From Candidatus Eiseniibacteriota bacterium (GTDB lineage Bacteria > JAFGKV01): a stretch of DNA of 13,440 nucleotides. Positions within the stretch are counted from its first letter, which is position 1. The number at the start of each line of letters is the position of its first letter. The translations under genes and the position numbers were made by a program. The stretch spans positions 1 to 13,440 of the forward strand of contig JALOPK010000062.1 in assembly GCA_025453925.1 (NCBI GenBank), written 5' to 3'. The notes beneath the pieces were generated by a model that worked only from the letters and a program-made list of their open reading frames with translations, was not told where the DNA came from and made no database searches. Positions 5,289-13,440 of the stretch are shown here, piece by piece.

Positions 5289-5695
5289 GGGTGTGTCGCC
5301 CGACGCCTGTCCGCCGCGGAACGCGAGGAGCGACCCCGGGTGTACAATGAGCACCACACGTCGCGGTGTGCCGGTGCCCGCTGTGAGCCTGCCGGGAGGT
5401 GACGTGCGGTGTCATGTTCCAGGAGCGGTGCGCTGGCGACCAGGATCACGCCTACGGTGACGGCCGGAGGTCCACGGAATGCCATGCCGCCCGCCGTGAA
5501 GGCGGCGGCCGCATCGGCTCGGGAGGTCAGGCGACCCCGGGGCGGGGAATCTTCCGTGCCTCCTCTCCTGGGGCCGCGGTCCGGCGAATGCCGCGTGCAT
5601 GTCGAAATGAAGAGGGATCGACGGATTCGGTCGAACGCCCCGCACTGTCGGGATGCGATGTGACGCCTCCTCTCCGGGGCGCCAAGGAGGATGAA
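5289..5695. other. 407-base intergenic region between the glycan operon and the barrel gene
   Basis: No convincing gene. Open frames here (for example 5409-5663) are rich in Arg, Pro and Ala and have high GC at the second codon position, unlike the real genes. TACAAT at 5343-5348 resembles a -10 box but has no matching -35. A GC-rich hairpin (5486-5495 with 5501-5509, one bulge) has no T-run after it. The GGGAGGTGA at 5394-5402 looks like a Shine-Dalgarno with no supported gene. The region probably carries the promoter of the next gene. Confidence 0.5.
5666..5690 (+). promoter_or_regulatory. Shine-Dalgarno of the barrel gene with a complementary upstream run
   Basis: A strong AAGGAGG (5684-5690) sits 5 bases before the ATG at 5696 and fixes that start. 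CCTCCT at 5666-5671 is perfectly complementary to AGGAGG at 5685-5690, leaving a 13-base loop, so the mRNA could hide its own ribosome-binding site. The six-pair helix is visible; regulation is inference. Confidence 0.4.
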
Positions 5696-6838
5696 ATGAG
5701 GAATGGATGGGTTCTCCTGTTCATCTTGATGCTGGGGTGTCTGCCCGCCAGTGCGTACGACCACAAGTACGCCGCAGAGTTCCTCAACATCGGAGTAGGT
5801 GCCCGTGCCGGCGCCATGGGAGGCGCGTTCAGCGCCGTTGCCGATGATGCGTCCGCCGGCTATTGGAACCCTGCGGGGTTGCGCCTTCTGTCCCGCAGGC
5901 AGATCGGGCTCATGCATTCTGCGCAGTTCGGAAACGAGGTGAAGTATGATTACCTGGTGTTCGGTTCACCGGGAGGAGTCGAGTCTTACGGCGTGAGCCT
6001 CATCCGAATGGGCATTGATGACATTCCCTACACCGAGGACGCGTTCCACGACTGGGGCATGGACAACATCCCCCCCGGCTCACCCGGTGACGACGGATCC
6101 GATGACTACGACCCGGCCACGAATCCCGACGGCACTGAGGGAAACGGCACATGGGATCCGTACGACTCGACCTTCCCCGATCTGCCCGGGGAGGGCATCG
6201 ATGAGGGCGCCATCGAGTACAAGAGCGATGTGGAGATGGCGCTGCTAGTGACCTACGCAAAGACCATTGGGGCCCTCAGCGCCGGCGCCAACGCGAAGCT
6301 GATACGCCAGGGAATCGGGGACGCCAGCCTCCTGGGATTGGGCGGTGACGATACGATGTTCGGGTTCGGCGTTGATCTGGGGCTGCTGTATCAGATTCGG
6401 CCCTGGTGGCGAACCGCTGCCGTGCTTCGTGATGCCGTGGGTACCCTTTTGGTATGGAATAACGGCACACGCAATACCAAGACGCCGACGCTTACTGTGG
6501 GCAATGCGGTGTTCGCCCGCGCGGCCTCGAACCAAGTAAGACTGACGGTCGCCGCCGATGTCGACCTCCGATTCGAAGGGCGGGAAACCGCCAGTCAGTT
6601 CTCAACCGGCGCGCTGAGCGCCGATCTCCGGATCGGCGGGGAGATTGCTTACCGGGAGGCTATCGCGCTCCGCGCAGGCCTGCAGCCCTCCTCGAGAGAC
6701 AAGGAGCCCTACGGACGAGCCTGGGATCTCACGCTGGGAGCCGGGCTGTCATTCAGAGGAATGATGCTTGACTATGCATTCTCGGAGCACCGCGTCTTCG
6801 ACCAGACCCACAAAGTGTCCCTTGGTCTTCTCCTGTAG
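5696..6838 (+). CDS. PorV/PorQ-family outer-membrane beta-barrel protein
   Basis: Exported protein of 380 residues with a signal peptide (MRNGWVLLFILMLGCLPASA, probable cleavage before YD). The mature start FLNIGVGARAGAMGGAFSAV followed by DDASAGYWNPAGL is the family hallmark, and the chain ends in beta strands (LDYAFSEHRV, then HKVSLGLLL). In Bacteroidetes the relative PorV carries cargo to the type IX secretion sortase; in other phyla the role of such barrels is mostly unknown, so no secretion function is claimed here. Between about residues 121 and 172 (6059-6212) lies a loop rich in Asp, Gly and Pro with GNGTWDPYD, like calcium-binding DxNGNG repeats. The last residue is Leu, not the aromatic usual for barrel insertion signals. 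It lies 35 bases before the first phosphodiesterase gene, so the two probably form one transcript. Confidence 0.9.
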   Translation: MRNGWVLLFILMLGCLPASAYDHKYAAEFLNIGVGARAGAMGGAFSAVADDASAGYWNPAGLRLLSRRQIGLMHSAQFGNEVKYDYLVFGSPGGVESYGVSLIRMGIDDIPYTEDAFHDWGMDNIPPGSPGDDGSDDYDPATNPDGTEGNGTWDPYDSTFPDLPGEGIDEGAIEYKSDVEMALLVTYAKTIGALSAGANAKLIRQGIGDASLLGLGGDDTMFGFGVDLGLLYQIRPWWRTAAVLRDAVGTLLVWNNGTRNTKTPTLTVGNAVFARAASNQVRLTVAADVDLRFEGRETASQFSTGALSADLRIGGEIAYREAIALRAGLQPSSRDKEPYGRAWDLTLGAGLSFRGMMLDYAFSEHRVFDQTHKVSLGLLL

Positions 6839-6873
6839 CACAAGAGCCCTGTTGTCCTGTCAAGGAGTGTGTG

Positions 6874-8211
6874 ATGGCGCTCGGTCATACTGAGATACCG
6901 CGTCTCGTGGTGGTGGGAATTGACGGCGTCCCGCTCACCCTGCTGCATGAACTGATGAGCCGCGGCATCATGCCCGCCATGAAAGCGCTGGTTTCCGACC
7001 GTACCGTGGAACTGCTCAGCGTGTACCCGACAGTGTCATCGGCTGCGTGGACGAGTTTCATGACTGGCCTTCATCCCCCGCGGCACGGCATTATGGGGTT
7101 CGTCAACAAGACGGCCGGGAGCTATGACATCCTCTTTCCGCGGCGCGAACACATCCGTTCGCCGCTCGTACAGGAGATCGTGAGTGAGGCGGGGGGTACG
7201 GTGTTCTCCATGGGGGTTCCGGTGACGTTTCCCCCCATGCACCTGCGTGGCGTCGTGATCTCCTGCTTTCTCGCTCCCGGGCTGGACAAGGCCGTCTTTC
7301 CTCCCGGCGAGCTTGCCACGCTGCGTGAACTCGGCTACGTCATGGATCCGGATCCTCTCGTGGCCCATCAGGACCGCGCTCGTTTCATGGGGATGATTCA
7401 CCACGGACTGGAGCGGCGCATCGCCACCGTCCAGCACTACTTCCGCAGCCAGCCGTGGGACCTTTTCCTCGTGCACGTGATGGAAACAGACCGGCTTCAT
7501 CACTTCTTCTGGCGCGACCACGACACCCCCGGATCCGCGTTCCACGAGGACTTCTTCCGGTTCTACCGCAGGCTTGACGGCCTCTTCGAGTGGCTCGGAC
7601 AGGAAATGGGGGATTCCCGCCGGCTTGTCGTCCTGTCCGATCACGGGTTCTGCGGACTCGACTGGGAAGTCAATGCCGGAAAGTGGATGGTAGATCAGGG
7701 GATGACCGTGCTCCGATCGACGACTCCCGGGCCGCCGCTGACCAACGTGGAGTGGAGCAAGACCAAAGCCTACAGCATGATACCGGGCCGCGTCTGGGTA
7801 AACCGGCGCGGGAGGGAGCCCGAAGGAATCGTGAGTCCTTCCGAGGCGGATGACGTTCTCGCCCGGCTCAGAGGAGCCGCCATGGAGTGGAGGGATCCCA
7901 GGGGCCAGCCGGTAATCGATAAGGTGCTCATCGGCACGGAGATCCCCGGCTACAGGGAGGGGAACGGAATTCCGGATGCGCTGCTGATATCGAAGCGAGG
8001 GATGGATCTCAAGGACGGTGCCTTACGACCCGAGTTGTTCGAGCGGAAGGCCCTCAACGGCATGCACACCTATGACGACGCGCTGCTCTTCTTCGGGCCG
8101 GATCAGATTCGTGCCGAACATGCGCCATGGATCGGGGATCTGGCGCCGACATTGCTCCGCGTTCTCGGGCAACCGGCGCCCCACGACCTGGATGGCAGAG
8201 CTCTTGTCTGA
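6874..8211 (+). CDS. AlkP-superfamily type I phosphodiesterase-like protein, first copy
   Basis: Metal-dependent hydrolase or phosphotransferase of the type I phosphodiesterase/nucleotide pyrophosphatase branch, 445 residues. The expected two-metal site is present: Asp17 in VGIDG, Asp206 and His209 in ETDRLHH, Asp256/His257 in SDHG, and His398 in GMH. The nucleophile region reads YPTVSSAAWTSFMTG. Aligning on the final TG places Ser55 where nucleotide pyrophosphatases have Thr. There is no signal peptide or membrane helix, so it should act in the cytoplasm, perhaps on a nucleotide-sugar, a lipid-linked phosphate or a phosphate-bearing cofactor; the substrate is unknown. ATG 6874 is chosen because AAGGAG (6862-6867) lies 6 bases upstream; the adjacent GTG 6871 would be too close. 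It is followed by a structured leader and a related gene. Confidence 0.9.
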   Translation: MALGHTEIPRLVVVGIDGVPLTLLHELMSRGIMPAMKALVSDRTVELLSVYPTVSSAAWTSFMTGLHPPRHGIMGFVNKTAGSYDILFPRREHIRSPLVQEIVSEAGGTVFSMGVPVTFPPMHLRGVVISCFLAPGLDKAVFPPGELATLRELGYVMDPDPLVAHQDRARFMGMIHHGLERRIATVQHYFRSQPWDLFLVHVMETDRLHHFFWRDHDTPGSAFHEDFFRFYRRLDGLFEWLGQEMGDSRRLVVLSDHGFCGLDWEVNAGKWMVDQGMTVLRSTTPGPPLTNVEWSKTKAYSMIPGRVWVNRRGREPEGIVSPSEADDVLARLRGAAMEWRDPRGQPVIDKVLIGTEIPGYREGNGIPDALLISKRGMDLKDGALRPELFERKALNGMHTYDDALLFFGPDQIRAEHAPWIGDLAPTLLRVLGQPAPHDLDGRALV

Positions 8212-8378: not shown

Positions 8379-8396
8379 AGCCGAACATGTTCGGCT
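8379..8396. promoter_or_regulatory. Perfect 18-base palindrome in the leader of the second phosphodiesterase gene
   Basis: AGCCGAACATGTTCGGCT equals its own reverse complement over all 18 bases. It could be an operator for a dimeric regulator, or in RNA a 7-pair stem with a CAUG loop. It lies 3 bases before the next hairpin and 63 bases before the GTG start. Confidence 0.5.
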
Positions 8397-8399
8397 CAG

Positions 8400-8429
8400 G
8401 AAGCCCCCGAGCTCGCTCGGGGGTGCTTC
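8400..8429 (+). promoter_or_regulatory. GC-rich hairpin just upstream of the ribosome-binding site, attenuator- or terminator-like
   Basis: CCCCGAG (8405-8411) pairs with CTCGGGG (8416-8422) around CTCG. GAAGC (8400-8404) then pairs with GCTTC (8425-8429), leaving a GT bulge, for 12 pairs in all. No T-run follows, which argues against a simple terminator. It ends 16 bases before the AAGGAG Shine-Dalgarno at 8446-8451. Confidence 0.5.
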
Positions 8430-8458
8430 ATTCCGCACAGGACACAAGGAGCACGAGC

Positions 8459-10105
8459 GTGGGTAACCGATGCATTCTCCTCGGCCTCGATGGGGCCACG
8501 TATGATCTCCTCGACCCGTGGATGGACGCGGGGTTTCTGCCGAATCTGAAGGACCTGCTTGCCCGAGGTGCGAAGGGCGTGCTCCGCTCCACGGATCCTC
8601 CCACGACGCCGCCCGCGTGGACCTCGGTCCTCACAGGGGTCAATCCGGGCAAGCACGGGATTTTCGACTTCCGGGACTCGTTCCACCGTGATCCGCGCCG
8701 ACCTCTCGTGAGCTCGCGTTCCATGAAAGCCCCCCGCATCTGGCAGATTCTCAATGCCGCCGGTCTCCGTACTGCCATCATGAACGTTCCCATCACCTTC
8801 CCGCCAGAACCTCTCGATGGGTTCATGATAAGCGGGATGATGACGCCCAACGACGAGGCTGAGTACACCTACCCGCCCGAGCTCAAGGCTCGTCTCGACG
8901 GGATGGTCGGGCACTACGTGGTTGACGTTGACATACCGCGCTATGACGTGGAGATCTGGAAGGACGCGCAGGCGTTCTTCGACGACGTGGAGCGCGCCTT
9001 CACGCGGCGATCCGAGGCTTTCCTCCGGCTCATGAAGGAAGAACGATGGGACTTCTTCATGGTGGTGTTCGTCATCCTCGATCGCATTCAGCATCTGTTC
9101 TGGAAGTTCTTGGTGTCGGAGTTCGAACAGTACCACACCCCACTGGGCGCGAGGGTTCGGGATAGAGTGATCGCGCTCTACAGCCTGGTGGACAGGACCA
9201 TCGGCGCAGTGATGGAACAGCTTGATGGATCGACCACGCTTCTGCTCTGCTCGGACCACGGTTTCGGCGGCACAAGAGCGTGGTTCAACGTGAACCGTTG
9301 GCTCGAGCGGGAGAAGCTGCTGACGCTGGTGCCCTCGGTCCGGTGGAAGAAGCGAATCTTCTACACCCTCATGTCGTGGAATGACTCATCCTTCGTGAAG
9401 GCCGTGGTGCCGGCGTCAGTACAGAGCATGGTCAGGGGGCGCATCCGGGCGGGGCGCTCAACCTACAAGACCGATGTGCTGGCCACGGTGGATTGGTCCC
9501 GGACCAAGGCTTTCTTCGCCAGTATTCCCAGTCAGGGCATCTATGTCAACCGACAGCTGGTGCCGGAGCGCGAGCGAGACAGCCTTCGGCGGGACATCCG
9601 CGACCGGCTGCTGGGACTCAAGGACCCCGAGACTGGCAAGACATTCGTCGACCGGGTGATGTTCCCCGAGGAAATCTATGACGGGCCAGAGAGCATCTAC
9701 GCACCCGATGTGCTCTTTGTCGCGCAGGATTATGGATATCTGGGGAGGCAGCTCTTCGGTACCTCGCGGGTCGTCGAGACGAGTCTCCATACGCCGAACG
9801 GATTCCATCGGGTCGGAGGCATTTTCGGCGCGTACGGACCCGATATCCAGCCGGGTACCGCGGTCCGGGGAGCTGCCGTGCACGATGTGACGGCCACCGT
9901 GCTGCATGCCATGGAGCAGCCCGTGCCGTCCTACATGGATGGCCGCGCGCTGATTGAGATTTTCTCGCCCGACTATCGCGACGCCCATCCCGTGCACACC
10001 GCAGGCAACGATCAGTACGAGACCGCGCAGCGAGGACACCACTACAGCGCGGAGGAACAGCAGGAGTTGGAGGAGCGGCTCCGGAGGCTCGGTTATTTAG
10101 GCTGA
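8459..10105 (+). CDS. AlkP-superfamily type I phosphodiesterase-like protein, second copy
   Basis: A longer relative (548 residues) of the preceding phosphodiesterase gene. The metal site is complete: Asp11 in LGLDG, Asp208/His212 in DRIQH, Asp266/His267 in SDHG, and His450 in GFH. The nucleophile segment PPTTPPAWTSVLTG places Thr50 at the catalytic position, as in nucleotide pyrophosphatases. It has no signal peptide, so a cytoplasmic enzyme is expected. The extra length lies mainly between the SDHG motif and the C-terminal His motif (about residues 280-380). The C-terminus LRRLGYLG resembles a tail I associate with AlkP and sulfatase proteins of candidate phyla. I chose GTG 8459 because AAGGAG lies 7 bases before it and the first strand begins right after. 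ATG 8387 would start inside the palindrome and translate the hairpin. It has its own leader, so it may be controlled separately. Substrate unknown. Confidence 0.9.
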   Translation: MGNRCILLGLDGATYDLLDPWMDAGFLPNLKDLLARGAKGVLRSTDPPTTPPAWTSVLTGVNPGKHGIFDFRDSFHRDPRRPLVSSRSMKAPRIWQILNAAGLRTAIMNVPITFPPEPLDGFMISGMMTPNDEAEYTYPPELKARLDGMVGHYVVDVDIPRYDVEIWKDAQAFFDDVERAFTRRSEAFLRLMKEERWDFFMVVFVILDRIQHLFWKFLVSEFEQYHTPLGARVRDRVIALYSLVDRTIGAVMEQLDGSTTLLLCSDHGFGGTRAWFNVNRWLEREKLLTLVPSVRWKKRIFYTLMSWNDSSFVKAVVPASVQSMVRGRIRAGRSTYKTDVLATVDWSRTKAFFASIPSQGIYVNRQLVPERERDSLRRDIRDRLLGLKDPETGKTFVDRVMFPEEIYDGPESIYAPDVLFVAQDYGYLGRQLFGTSRVVETSLHTPNGFHRVGGIFGAYGPDIQPGTAVRGAAVHDVTATVLHAMEQPVPSYMDGRALIEIFSPDYRDAHPVHTAGNDQYETAQRGHHYSAEEQQELEERLRRLGYLG

Positions 10106-10286: not shown

Positions 10287-13200
10287 ATGACACAGAGCAA
10301 GTCTCGAAGTTCCCTCAGGAGCCTGCTCACCACGGCTCTGAAAGCCACCCTGACGGTGGGCGCCTTCTGGTTGCTGCTGAACCACAAGATTGCAGATGGA
10401 AGCCACCTCATGCTGTTGGCCTCCGACGGAACCACGCTTCATCTTGCGGTCGGCGAGAGCATTCTCCTGGAGCAGGGTGCCGCCTCCGTCATCTCATCGC
10501 GACAGCTCGACATCGGCGGTCAACCCACGCATGTTCAGACCGGTGACTACCTGCAGCGGGCCGATGGCGCCGAGCTGCAGGTGCTGCCCGAGGGGAAGAC
10601 CACCACCTACCGTGCCATTCGCACATACCTGCCTCGGATCCATGCCCGCACGTTCTGGCTGTTCATCGGGATCGGCGCGCTGGTGAAGGCAATCGGCATC
10701 CTCGCCAGCATGCTGCGCTGGCACGTCCTCCTGCTTGGGCAACAGATCCGCTTTCCCTTCGGACATCTGGCGGGGACCTTCATGATCGGCCGCTTCCTGG
10801 GCACGTTTCTCCCGTCCACCGTGGGCCTCGATGGGTACACCCTGTTTGATGCCGCACGGCACAGCAGGCGGACAGTGGAGGTTGCCGCTGCCAAGTTCAT
10901 AGAGAAGATCATGGGCATCGTGGGGATCCTCCTGACGTTCCTGGTCACGCTTCCCCTCGGATACGCCGTGTTCAGGAACAACCTGGGAGAGAATGCTGGC
11001 CACGTGACCGCGATCACGGTTGCCGTCTCCGTCGGCGCAATCGTCGTGTTCTTCTTCGTGCTCATGCGCCCCAAGATCATCGACCCCTTCATCCGCCTCC
11101 TCCCCGGCGAAGGAAAGCCCGCGCACATGCTCCGACACATCAGGGAGGCTGCCGGCGCCTATGACCACCACAGAGCCATTCTCGTGCTCGCGGCGGCGCT
11201 GAGCTTCCTCGTCCATTTTCTTACGGCCGTCATGTACTACTTCACCGCCCGGGCCATCGGCGCGTCAGGCGCCGATCTCTGGGAGATCAGCTTCGCGAGT
11301 TCCATCCAGATCTTCGCCACCGTCATCAGTCCCTTCACCATCGCCGGCGAAGGCGTGCGCGAGATCGTGACTTATGTCCTGCTCGGCGGCATGATGGGCG
11401 GGGAGGCCACGATTCTGTTCAGCGCCTTGGGGTTCTGGTCCGCGGAGGCGCTCACTCTGGTGGGCGCGGTTGTCTGGTTCGCGCGGCGACGCGGCTATGC
11501 TCCCCGGTTCGTAGAAGTAGGAGGCGTGCGGCTGAATCCGGCGGCGCCACCTCCCGCGCCTCCCACACCCCCGGCCCCCGATCCTCGGCCGCCGCGGGGA
11601 CGCAGGATCATCAGCGGGCTGATGGGCGGGCTCTTCGGAGGTGCCCTGCTGGGCTTCCTGGAGGGGCTCGTCGTCATCCGGCTCGCCAACCAGGACGAGA
11701 TGTGGGTCCTGCCCTATGCATTCCTGCTCTACGGTGTCTTCGGCGCCGCTCTGGGCGCGGCCACGGGGGTGCTGATCGAGCCCCTGGCCCGCCTGTCGGG
11801 GAGGAGGGAGGTTCGCGGCACCACGTTCGCCCTGGCATTCGCCGGCGTTTTTGCCCTCTGGGGTGCAGTGGTGACCCGGTTCCGCCTGGTCCGGGATCTG
11901 TTTCGTGAGCGACCGCCTCAGGGGCTCTTGCTCCCACTGGTGGTCCTGTGCGCGGCGTTCATCGTGGGTGTAGCGCTCTTTGCACTGGTGAAGAAGCTGT
12001 CGCGTCAGGGCAGGCCGTTTGCGCCTCTCCGTGAAGCACTCTCGGGCTCTCTGGTGTACATCGGGCTTTTGGGCGCGCTTCTGCTTGTGGCGTGGTGGGG
12101 GAAGACTGAACCTCCGGTGAGCAGCGTGGATCCCGCGGCACAGACCAAGGCGGCGGGACGTCCGAACGTCCTTCTCATCGTGGTGGACACCATGCGGGCC
12201 GACCGCCTCGGGTGTTACGGCTATCCCGAGAACACCAGCCCCACGCTGGATGCAATGGCCGCCGAGGGTGTCGTTTTCAGGCGCGCGGTTGCGCAGGCCT
12301 CGTGGACGCGGCCCTCAATCGCCACCATCCTCACGGGACTGTACCCATCCACCCACCAGGCCATCAGCAAGGTCAGCATTCTACCTGAGGCCGTCGTCAC
12401 CCTTGCCGAGGTCTTCCACCAGGAGGGATACTATACGGCGGGGTTCGCGGACAACATCAACATCGCCCCGATGTTCGGATTCGGTCAGGGGTTCTGCGAG
12501 TACCACTATCTGGCGCCCGCGTACTTCTACGGCGCGTCGGAGTCGGCATCGAAGCTGACCTTGTACGACCTCGTGCGTCTGGTGAAAGAGCGATTCCTCT
12601 CCAAGTCGAAGCACGTCGATCACTACTACCGTGACGCCGAACGCATGACTTCCGAGGCCATCGACTGGATGAAGGAGGAGCGCGGTGAGCCGTTTTTCCT
12701 GTTCCTCCACTACATGGACCCACACGACCCGTACTTCGTCCACCCGTACAATGGCGAGGGCTACGCCCGCGTGTCCATGCCCAAGCCCCCGCTGGAGATG
12801 GCGCCAATGCTCTCGGCGCTCTACGATGGCGAGATTGCGTTCTGGGACCGCAGTTTCGCGGATCTGTTGGCATTCATGAGATCGCGGGGGCTGCTGGACA
12901 ACACGATCATCGCGGTGACCGCAGATCACGGCGAGGAGTTTGCCGAACACGGGGGATGGTGGCATGGAGCCACGCTCTACGACGAGGGCATCCTCATCCC
13001 CCTGGTGATCCGGCTGCCGCAGGCTGCATCCGCCGGAATGGTCATCGACCACCAGGTTCGACTGCTGGATGTCGCGCCGACCTTGCTCGATCGCTGCGGG
13101 TTGCCCATACCCGGGACCATGCAGGGGGAGGCGCTAAGATGGGAGGATCCGGGGTTCTCAGGTATCCGGCAGGTCTTCTCCGAAGAAGACTTCGAGGGCA

Positions 13201-13440
13201 ACCTTCTGGCATCCGTCAGGACTCCTGACTGGAAACTCATCCGCGCGAACCAAGGGAATCGCCGCGGGCTCGATCCGCTGGAGCTGTACCATCTTCGCGA
13301 CGACCGCAAGGAGCGGTTCTCTTTGGTTGCCCAAGAGCCGGACACCGTGCGCACGCTTCAGGGGAGTATCGATGACATCCACCACCAGGCAACGAGAGTC
13401 GCGGTGCAGGGCAAGACGCAGGAACTGGATGCCGGCACGA
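10287..13440 (+). CDS. Lipid flippase-like (LPG_synthase_TM/UPF0104) protein fused to a sulfatase-fold AlkP domain (3' partial)
   Basis: One frame without stops runs from ATG 10287 past the window end (1051 codons). Order: a membrane helix (residues about 16-32); a soluble, beta-rich segment (33-118); a multi-helix flippase-like domain (about 123-405) with FLPSTVGLDGY at 174-184; a Pro/Ala linker (418-438); five more helices (about 440-610); and a sulfatase-fold domain from NVLLIVVDTMRADRLG (from residue 627). That domain keeps Asp634, Asp880/His881 in DHGE and His893 in WHG. Its nucleophile segment SWTRPSIATILTG has Thr674 where sulfatases have Cys or Ser, so a formylglycine sulfatase is unlikely. 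The membrane domain belongs with MprF/AglD-type proteins that flip lipids. The sulfatase-fold part would sit outside the inner membrane and may transfer or cleave a phosphate-linked group, as EptA- and LtaS-type enzymes do. Start supported by GAGGTG 6 bases upstream. Function is inferred. Confidence 0.88.
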   Translation, partial: MTQSKSRSSLRSLLTTALKATLTVGAFWLLLNHKIADGSHLMLLASDGTTLHLAVGESILLEQGAASVISSRQLDIGGQPTHVQTGDYLQRADGAELQVLPEGKTTTYRAIRTYLPRIHARTFWLFIGIGALVKAIGILASMLRWHVLLLGQQIRFPFGHLAGTFMIGRFLGTFLPSTVGLDGYTLFDAARHSRRTVEVAAAKFIEKIMGIVGILLTFLVTLPLGYAVFRNNLGENAGHVTAITVAVSVGAIVVFFFVLMRPKIIDPFIRLLPGEGKPAHMLRHIREAAGAYDHHRAILVLAAALSFLVHFLTAVMYYFTARAIGASGADLWEISFASSIQIFATVISPFTIAGEGVREIVTYVLLGGMMGGEATILFSALGFWSAEALTLVGAVVWFARRRGYAPRFVEVGGVRLNPAAPPPAPPTPPAPDPRPPRGRRIISGLMGGLFGGALLGFLEGLVVIRLANQDEMWVLPYAFLLYGVFGAALGAATGVLIEPLARLSGRREVRGTTFALAFAGVFALWGAVVTRFRLVRDLFRERPPQGLLLPLVVLCAAFIVGVALFALVKKLSRQGRPFAPLREALSGSLVYIGLLGALLLVAWWGKTEPPVSSVDPAAQTKAAGRPNVLLIVVDTMRADRLGCYGYPENTSPTLDAMAAEGVVFRRAVAQASWTRPSIATILTGLYPSTHQAISKVSILPEAVVTLAEVFHQEGYYTAGFADNINIAPMFGFGQGFCEYHYLAPAYFYGASESASKLTLYDLVRLVKERFLSKSKHVDHYYRDAERMTSEAIDWMKEERGEPFFLFLHYMDPHDPYFVHPYNGEGYARVSMPKPPLEMAPMLSALYDGEIAFWDRSFADLLAFMRSRGLLDNTIIAVTADHGEEFAEHGGWWHGATLYDEGILIPLVIRLPQAASAGMVIDHQVRLLDVAPTLLDRCGLPIPGTMQGEALRWEDPGFSGIRQVFSEEDFEGNLLASVRTPDWKLIRANQGNRRGLDPLELYHLRDDRKERFSLVAQEPDTVRTLQGSIDDIHHQATRVAVQGKTQELDAGT

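Follow-up and report, generated by a model that had tools for sequence, protein, structure and literature searches.

An MprF-type membrane domain fused to a Thr-type domain of the sulfatase fold in four bacterial phyla

The fused gene and the protein it encodes

The window analyzed in this study is the complete 13,440-base contig C422 of a draft Fermentibacterota MAG that comprises 502 contigs. An exopolysaccharide-type cluster (Wzc-like kinase, GT2, epimerase, GT4 and PorV-family protein) is followed by two PF01663 genes and then by the fused gene that is the subject of this report. The PorV/PorQ-family outer membrane protein (5630-6838) belongs to a type IX secretion-associated family, and its gene separates the glycosyltransferases from the AlkP genes. 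The features considered here are listed below.

6871..8211, + strand: second PF01663 gene (Pfam; neighbor in Fermentibacterota and the G221 phylum)
8387..10105, + strand: PF01663 (type I phosphodiesterase) gene directly upstream of the fusion (Pfam; neighbor in Fermentibacterota and the G221 phylum)
10287..13440, + strand: fused gene, ATG start, 1051 codons, about 11 missing
10311..10382, + strand: first membrane helix, residues 9-32, with the invariant-type Lys19 (AF2 model, hydropathy, conservation)
10383..10604, + strand: beta-strand insert, residues 33-106, predicted extracytoplasmic (AF2 strands with pLDDT of about 90; gap in other phyla)
10605..11483, + strand: PF03706 (LPG_synthase_TM / MprF-type) membrane domain, residues 107-399 (Pfam match 115-381, AF2, conservation)
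11484..11600, + strand: cytoplasmic linker, residues 400-438, proline-rich in the window protein (alignment, AF2)
11601..12098, + strand: second membrane block of five helices, residues 439-604 (AF2, conservation)
12162..13400, + strand: AlkP/sulfatase-fold domain, residues 626-1038, predicted extracytoplasmic (PF00884; VIA-align to 6hr5)
12186..12188, + strand: Asp634 codon, predicted metal ligand (invariant in 86/86; aligns with the metal Asp of phosphonate monoester hydrolase)
12306..12308, + strand: Thr674 codon, predicted nucleophile at the sulfatase Cys position (invariant in 86/86; alignment)
12924..12929, + strand: Asp880-His881 codons, predicted metal ligands (invariant in 86/86)

For the gene at 8387..10105, comparison with L034 makes a GTG near 8459 the likelier start. 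Neither PF01663 protein has an evident signal peptide, and both score far under every curated cut-off in NCBIfam (the best being PhnA, 26.5 versus 407.55 bits). Judged by their sequences, they are apparently cytosolic enzymes of the AlkP superfamily.

The original prediction held that a single uninterrupted frame, not two adjacent genes, spans the fusion. The frame indeed begins with the ATG at 10287 and runs for 1051 codons (1051 aa) to the end of the contig without a stop. The whole protein is present in both other Fermentibacterota genomes examined (1062 and 1064 residues, 78% and 64% identity), and both relatives extend 11 residues past the last codon of the window protein. Since the contig stops at 13440, the fused gene must be truncated near its 3′ end, with the last ∼11 codons cut off. 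Two Fermentibacterota MAGs assembled independently have the frame intact, so the fusion did not arise from an assembly join, and the chimeric junction that was named as a reason to abandon the prediction did not appear. An assembly artefact or a chance run-on of two genes, as might be feared for a gene that touches a contig end in a draft of 502 contigs, is thus ruled out to the point of negligible probability, the frame being unbroken also in 83 further proteins. Purifying selection acts on every segment of the gene, the junction among them, in the three Fermentibacterota sequences (synonymous proportion 0.62-0.77, non-synonymous 0.11-0.31, with synonymous sites near saturation and the ratios therefore rough). 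The linker is the sole segment in which selection is relaxed in this comparison.

Domain searches of the kind proposed with the prediction gave matches above cut-off for both halves. PF03706 matches residues 115-381 with 58.3 bits (cut-off 33.4), in agreement with the predicted flippase-like LPG_synthase_TM domain, and PF00884 matches residues 626-938 with 158.2 bits (cut-off 25). Four orthologues that were scanned score 65-88 bits with PF03706, and R144, R169, E206, H310 and E359 are invariant in this domain. A structure prediction of the full protein, likewise proposed, was made with AF2 from 86 aligned fused sequences. It reaches a mean pLDDT of 90.2 and a pTM of 0.76 with the domains in the order claimed, and it replaces an earlier model built from 8 sequences (pLDDT 64). 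The second membrane block consists, as predicted, of five helices (439-467, 474-504, 510-538, 548-573 and 584-604), in which E459 is near-invariant and D537 is invariant. The linker was correctly described as proline-rich for the window protein, but this property is not conserved, since the linker of L035 is rich in Glu and Ala. The original description did not mention the beta strands inserted between helices one and two; this insert occurs only in Fermentibacterota and G221-phylum proteins and is a gap in other phyla.

The membrane domains have no PDB match by sequence profile. In the AF2 model, two broken helices (158-174/179-193 and 331-347/357-370) are compatible, as a helix pattern only, with the two re-entrant hairpins of the MprF fold. 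In the Rhizobium MprF structure (PMC8131360), the gate pair of RtMprF is Glu280-Arg304. At the motif position, the fused proteins invariably have a Glu (E359), and the later helix of the aligned members, among which MprF itself is absent, carries no Arg.

The topology was computed from the helix count with the N terminus inside, assuming two re-entrant hairpins as in MprF, and from the charge distribution. The beta-strand insert and the AlkP domain are predicted by this model to be located outside the cell membrane. Basic stretches at 261-295, 400-438, 505-509 and 574-583 lie inside, as expected of this topology. Helix count and charges thereby favor the earlier proposal that the enzyme is across the membrane from the side of the MprF synthase. 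The sole basic outer loop (532-547) contains the invariant D537 and the conserved R533 and R536, and by helix count it is outside, beside the AlkP domain. This loop could contact a lipid phosphate beneath the active site.

Spread of the fusion and of split versions

A survey of other genomes, also suggested with the original prediction, yielded 86 fused proteins in four phyla, including that of the window: 46 in the G279 phylum, 35 in the G376 phylum, two in the G221 phylum and three in Fermentibacterota. The same-frame AlkP domain was checked on the fetched genes for all 86. Homologs are therefore not always two separate genes, which was the other outcome named as fatal to the prediction. Whole-phylum searches with profiles of the first 625 residues place the fused frame in 58 of 68 G279-phylum genomes (in a few of which a contig end cuts it), in 37 of 187 sampled from the G376 phylum and in two of eight from the G221 phylum, where a third (G388) is cut by a contig end. 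When a profile of the N-terminal half was run over 386 genomes of many phyla, the fused form was found in eight (three Fermentibacterota and five others), along with two close stand-alone halves. A 1116-aa frame in G101 was rejected as a fusion because it has no fused AlkP domain.

A stand-alone flippase half is encoded in 19 further genomes, and the matching five-helix and AlkP half is found elsewhere in 18 of them. Within the G376 phylum, a separate five-helix and AlkP gene is present in 16 of 17 genomes with a stand-alone flippase half, versus 11 of 133 other non-fused genomes (Fisher p 1.5e-13, an optimistic value since kinship is ignored). Both halves are also present as a split pair in G059 and G093, each the sole genome of its own phylum. 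The co-retention of the split halves indicates that the two form a functional pair, whether joined or apart. That this is a true fusion, as first proposed, is borne out by its maintenance in four phyla.

In FastTree trees, which provide local support only and contain long branches, the fused and split proteins are separated with support 100 from the remaining PF03706 domains and with support 99 from the remaining proteins of the sulfatase fold. The trees of the two halves broadly agree, with a patristic correlation of 0.86 overall, 0.95 within the G376 phylum and 0.60 within the G279 phylum. The fusion architecture is an old, conserved family.

No universal operon partner was found when neighborhoods were compared across phyla, and the neighbors vary by phylum. 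The G221 phylum has a conserved cluster in the order PF01663, ATP sulfurylase, PHP, PF01663, APS kinase, PF01663, fusion, PF01663 (L096 1236-13397 and L097 5225-17731, with L226 cut at the fusion). In the G279 phylum, a PF13469 sulfotransferase is the divergent neighbor of the fusion in nine of 22 loci (L101 7302-8321 and eight others), and UDP-glucose dehydrogenase-like and epimerase-like genes often come after the sulfotransferase. Recurring neighbors in the G376 phylum are glycerol-3-phosphate dehydrogenase, FeoB and a lipoprotein-like gene. These neighborhoods hint at envelope glycans or lipids without pointing to a single substrate.

Fold and active site of the AlkP domain

The second half was originally described as a sulfatase-fold domain. 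This holds for the fold, since the PF00884 match is accompanied by a VIA-align superposition on sulfatase 6hr5 with a Z of 44.2 and an rmsd of 2.2 over 351 residues. Superpositions of the domain on sulfatases and phosphonate monoester hydrolases give Z values of 34-44, and the closest solved relatives among the matches listed are the hydrolases 4upi, 4upk, 2w8s and 6hr5. The description does not extend to the active site, which is of the Thr type seen in phosphotransferases and phosphodiesterases. Thr674 aligns with the Cys of CGPSR in 4upk, and Thr occupies the Cys position of C-x-P-x-R in all 86 fused proteins. The window protein reads T-R-P-S-I at this site, and the Arg of the motif is not retained in the family. 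The formylglycine motif C/S-x-P/A-x-R is absent from all 86. In place of the D-D and D-N calcium ligands of sulfatases, the fused proteins have D634-T635 (T or A) and D880-H881. A type I formylglycine sulfatase is thus excluded by Thr at the Cys position and by the missing motif.

The Asp634-Thr674-Asp880-His881 set is invariant in 86 of 86 fused proteins, as are H690, H813, D814, E884, H888 and H893. The split C-halves retain the invariant residues, save for one fragment and one substitution.

The position of Thr674 is also Thr in LtaS, EptA, MCR-1 and YejM, proteins that each have lipid phosphates as substrates or phosphatase activity, and EptA and YejM likewise place five helices before a periplasmic AlkP domain (PMC7576196). 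The fused proteins have this arrangement, with five helices at 439-604 ahead of the AlkP domain at 626-1038 (AF2, with the membrane side taken from helix count and charges). They also have the Thr nucleophile and the acidic/Thr/Asp/His metal site of the EptA/LtaS type in all 86 cases. The curated EptA/LtaS-type models, in contrast, remain far below cut-off (EptA, 30.6 versus 561 bits; P_eth_NH2_trans, 18.9 versus 500). By sequence and, among the structure matches listed, by fold, the core resembles sulfatases and phosphonate monoester hydrolases more closely than EptA or LtaS, so that transferase chemistry is putative. EptA and LtaS are missing from the structure matches listed, which the AlkP domain takes up, and this absence does not count against a relationship. 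Our preferred reading is that the outer enzyme belongs to the Thr-type phosphotransferase/phosphodiesterase class, within which transfer and hydrolysis are indistinguishable from sequence alone.

Among 19 Fermentibacterota proteins of the PF00884 fold outside the fused family (L006, L008-L013 and L017-L031), the nucleophile position is Thr in 18 and Cys in one. Most Fermentibacterota proteins annotated as ‘sulfatases’ are probably not formylglycine sulfatases, going by this position, and many proteins so annotated in these phyla cannot be.

Proposed mechanism and comparison with known systems

The picture that we favor is a single chain in which a translocase is combined with an outer-leaflet, metal-dependent phosphotransferase or phosphodiesterase that uses a Thr nucleophile on a lipid or lipid-linked headgroup. 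We judge this proposal to be evenly balanced between right and wrong. It is supported by the occurrence of the fusion in 86 proteins of four phyla, by purifying selection on both halves and by the invariant D634, T674, D880 and H881. The EptA/YejM-like layout and the shared Thr position also favor it.

The N-terminal MprF-type domain would move a phospho- or glycolipid between leaflets, and the five helices and periplasmic AlkP domain would act on the outer leaflet in the manner of EptA and LtaS. Thr674 would attack the headgroup phosphodiester to form a Thr-phospho-headgroup intermediate, which would then be resolved by water or by an acceptor, either another lipid or a surface glycan. The translocase domain would either supply the donor lipid or carry a diacylglycerol-type product back. 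The fusion and its conservation, the fold, the intact Thr/Asp/Asp/His site, the topology and the co-retention of split halves are computed results; the substrate, transfer rather than hydrolysis, the coupling and the direction of movement are inferred. The specific role for the MprF-type domain, that of feeding donor lipid to the outer-leaflet Thr-type phosphotransferase or returning diacylglycerol from it within one chain, is offered tentatively, as an idea with somewhat less than an even prospect of being correct. The more general suggestion made originally, in which one chain would flip a lipid and afterwards transfer or cleave off its headgroup, is a plausible inference.

To our knowledge, the supply of donor lipid to outer-leaflet headgroup transferases and the return of leftover diacylglycerol are largely open questions. 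A single chain with a translocase domain and a headgroup enzyme would make both testable on one purified protein. If the proposal is true, flipping is physically coupled to headgroup chemistry on the trans side, which would solve how reactions of the EptA/LtaS kind obtain their donor or return their by-product.

Three other explanations deserve consideration. The domain may be an outer-leaflet hydrolase that serves recycling or homeostasis by splitting, with water, either a lipid-linked sugar phosphate or the headgroup of a lipid that has been flipped. Its closest solved relatives, as noted above for the matches listed, are hydrolases, and YejM, which combines five helices with a Thr-containing AlkP domain, has phosphatase activity (PMC7576196). 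Such a role would follow the logic of AcvB, a periplasmic Lys-PG hydrolase that is paired with a flippase-synthase; in Agrobacterium, a flippase/synthase is reported to work together with a periplasmic lipid hydrolase (PMC13197417). However, transferases are the best-known proteins in which a five-helix block precedes an AlkP domain of the Thr type, and we regard this explanation as rather unlikely. A role in sulfate chemistry, in which sulfuryl groups on a lipid-linked glycan are removed or transferred, is suggested by the PF00884 assignment, by the sulfotransferase neighbors in the G279 phylum and by the ATP sulfurylase and APS kinase genes in the G221-phylum cluster. This is improbable given the missing sulfatase motif and calcium ligands, and the APS kinase match in the window's genome is weak only. 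Finally, 5TM and AlkP proteins with sensing roles exist, as debated for YejM/PbgA (PMC7576196), but a non-catalytic domain that senses an outer-leaflet lipid and controls the translocase is highly doubtful when the full metal and nucleophile set is invariant in the fused proteins and kept in split C-halves.

The preferred reading, a translocase joined to a Thr-type phosphotransferase or phosphodiesterase, can be compared with several known systems. Fusions of MprF-type (PplT) domains with other lipid enzymes are already on record (Hauser et al. preprint 2022, cited by PMC11980842), and the present fusion adds to these; going by that citation, its partner is distinct in being a Thr-type AlkP domain. 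No description of a flippase-sulfatase fusion was found in the open literature, a search outside of which the preprint falls, and the same fusion is possibly already listed there.

Like phosphonate monoester hydrolases and type I sulfatases (S1), the AlkP domain has the common fold, with metal Asp and Asp-His positions as in the former. It differs from them by Thr in place of the formylglycine Cys, by the loss of the C-x-P-x-R Arg and by its membrane anchor. EptA/MCR, LtaS and YejM/PbgA share with the fused protein the five helices followed by a periplasmic AlkP fold, the Thr nucleophile and the acidic/Thr/Asp/His-type metal site. In contrast to these enzymes, the fused protein adds an MprF-type domain and has a core nearer to sulfatases and phosphonate monoester hydrolases. 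The residues W673, H690, K695, N725 and H813-D814 are specific to its family, as compared with EptA, LtaS and YejM.

MprF likewise combines a PF03706 membrane domain with a lipid-modifying enzyme in one chain (PMC8131360, PMC11980842), and its Pseudomonas representative scrambles many lipids without preference (PMC11980842). A P-x(4)-G-x-G-x-x-E-like motif, with E359 in the fused protein, is conserved in both. The fused protein lacks the cytosolic aminoacyl-PG synthase domain (there is no such Pfam hit, and the C-terminal domain is PF00884). Instead, its enzyme is an extracytoplasmic metalloenzyme of the AlkP fold accompanied by a five-helix block of its own and by a beta-strand insert. The pairing of a flippase with a headgroup enzyme on the outer face has a counterpart in LpiA/AcvB, a Lys-PG synthase-flippase and a periplasmic Lys-PG hydrolase. 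In that system (PMC13197417), the two proteins are encoded by separate genes, the hydrolase is a different one and the chemistry is that of aminoacyl esters.
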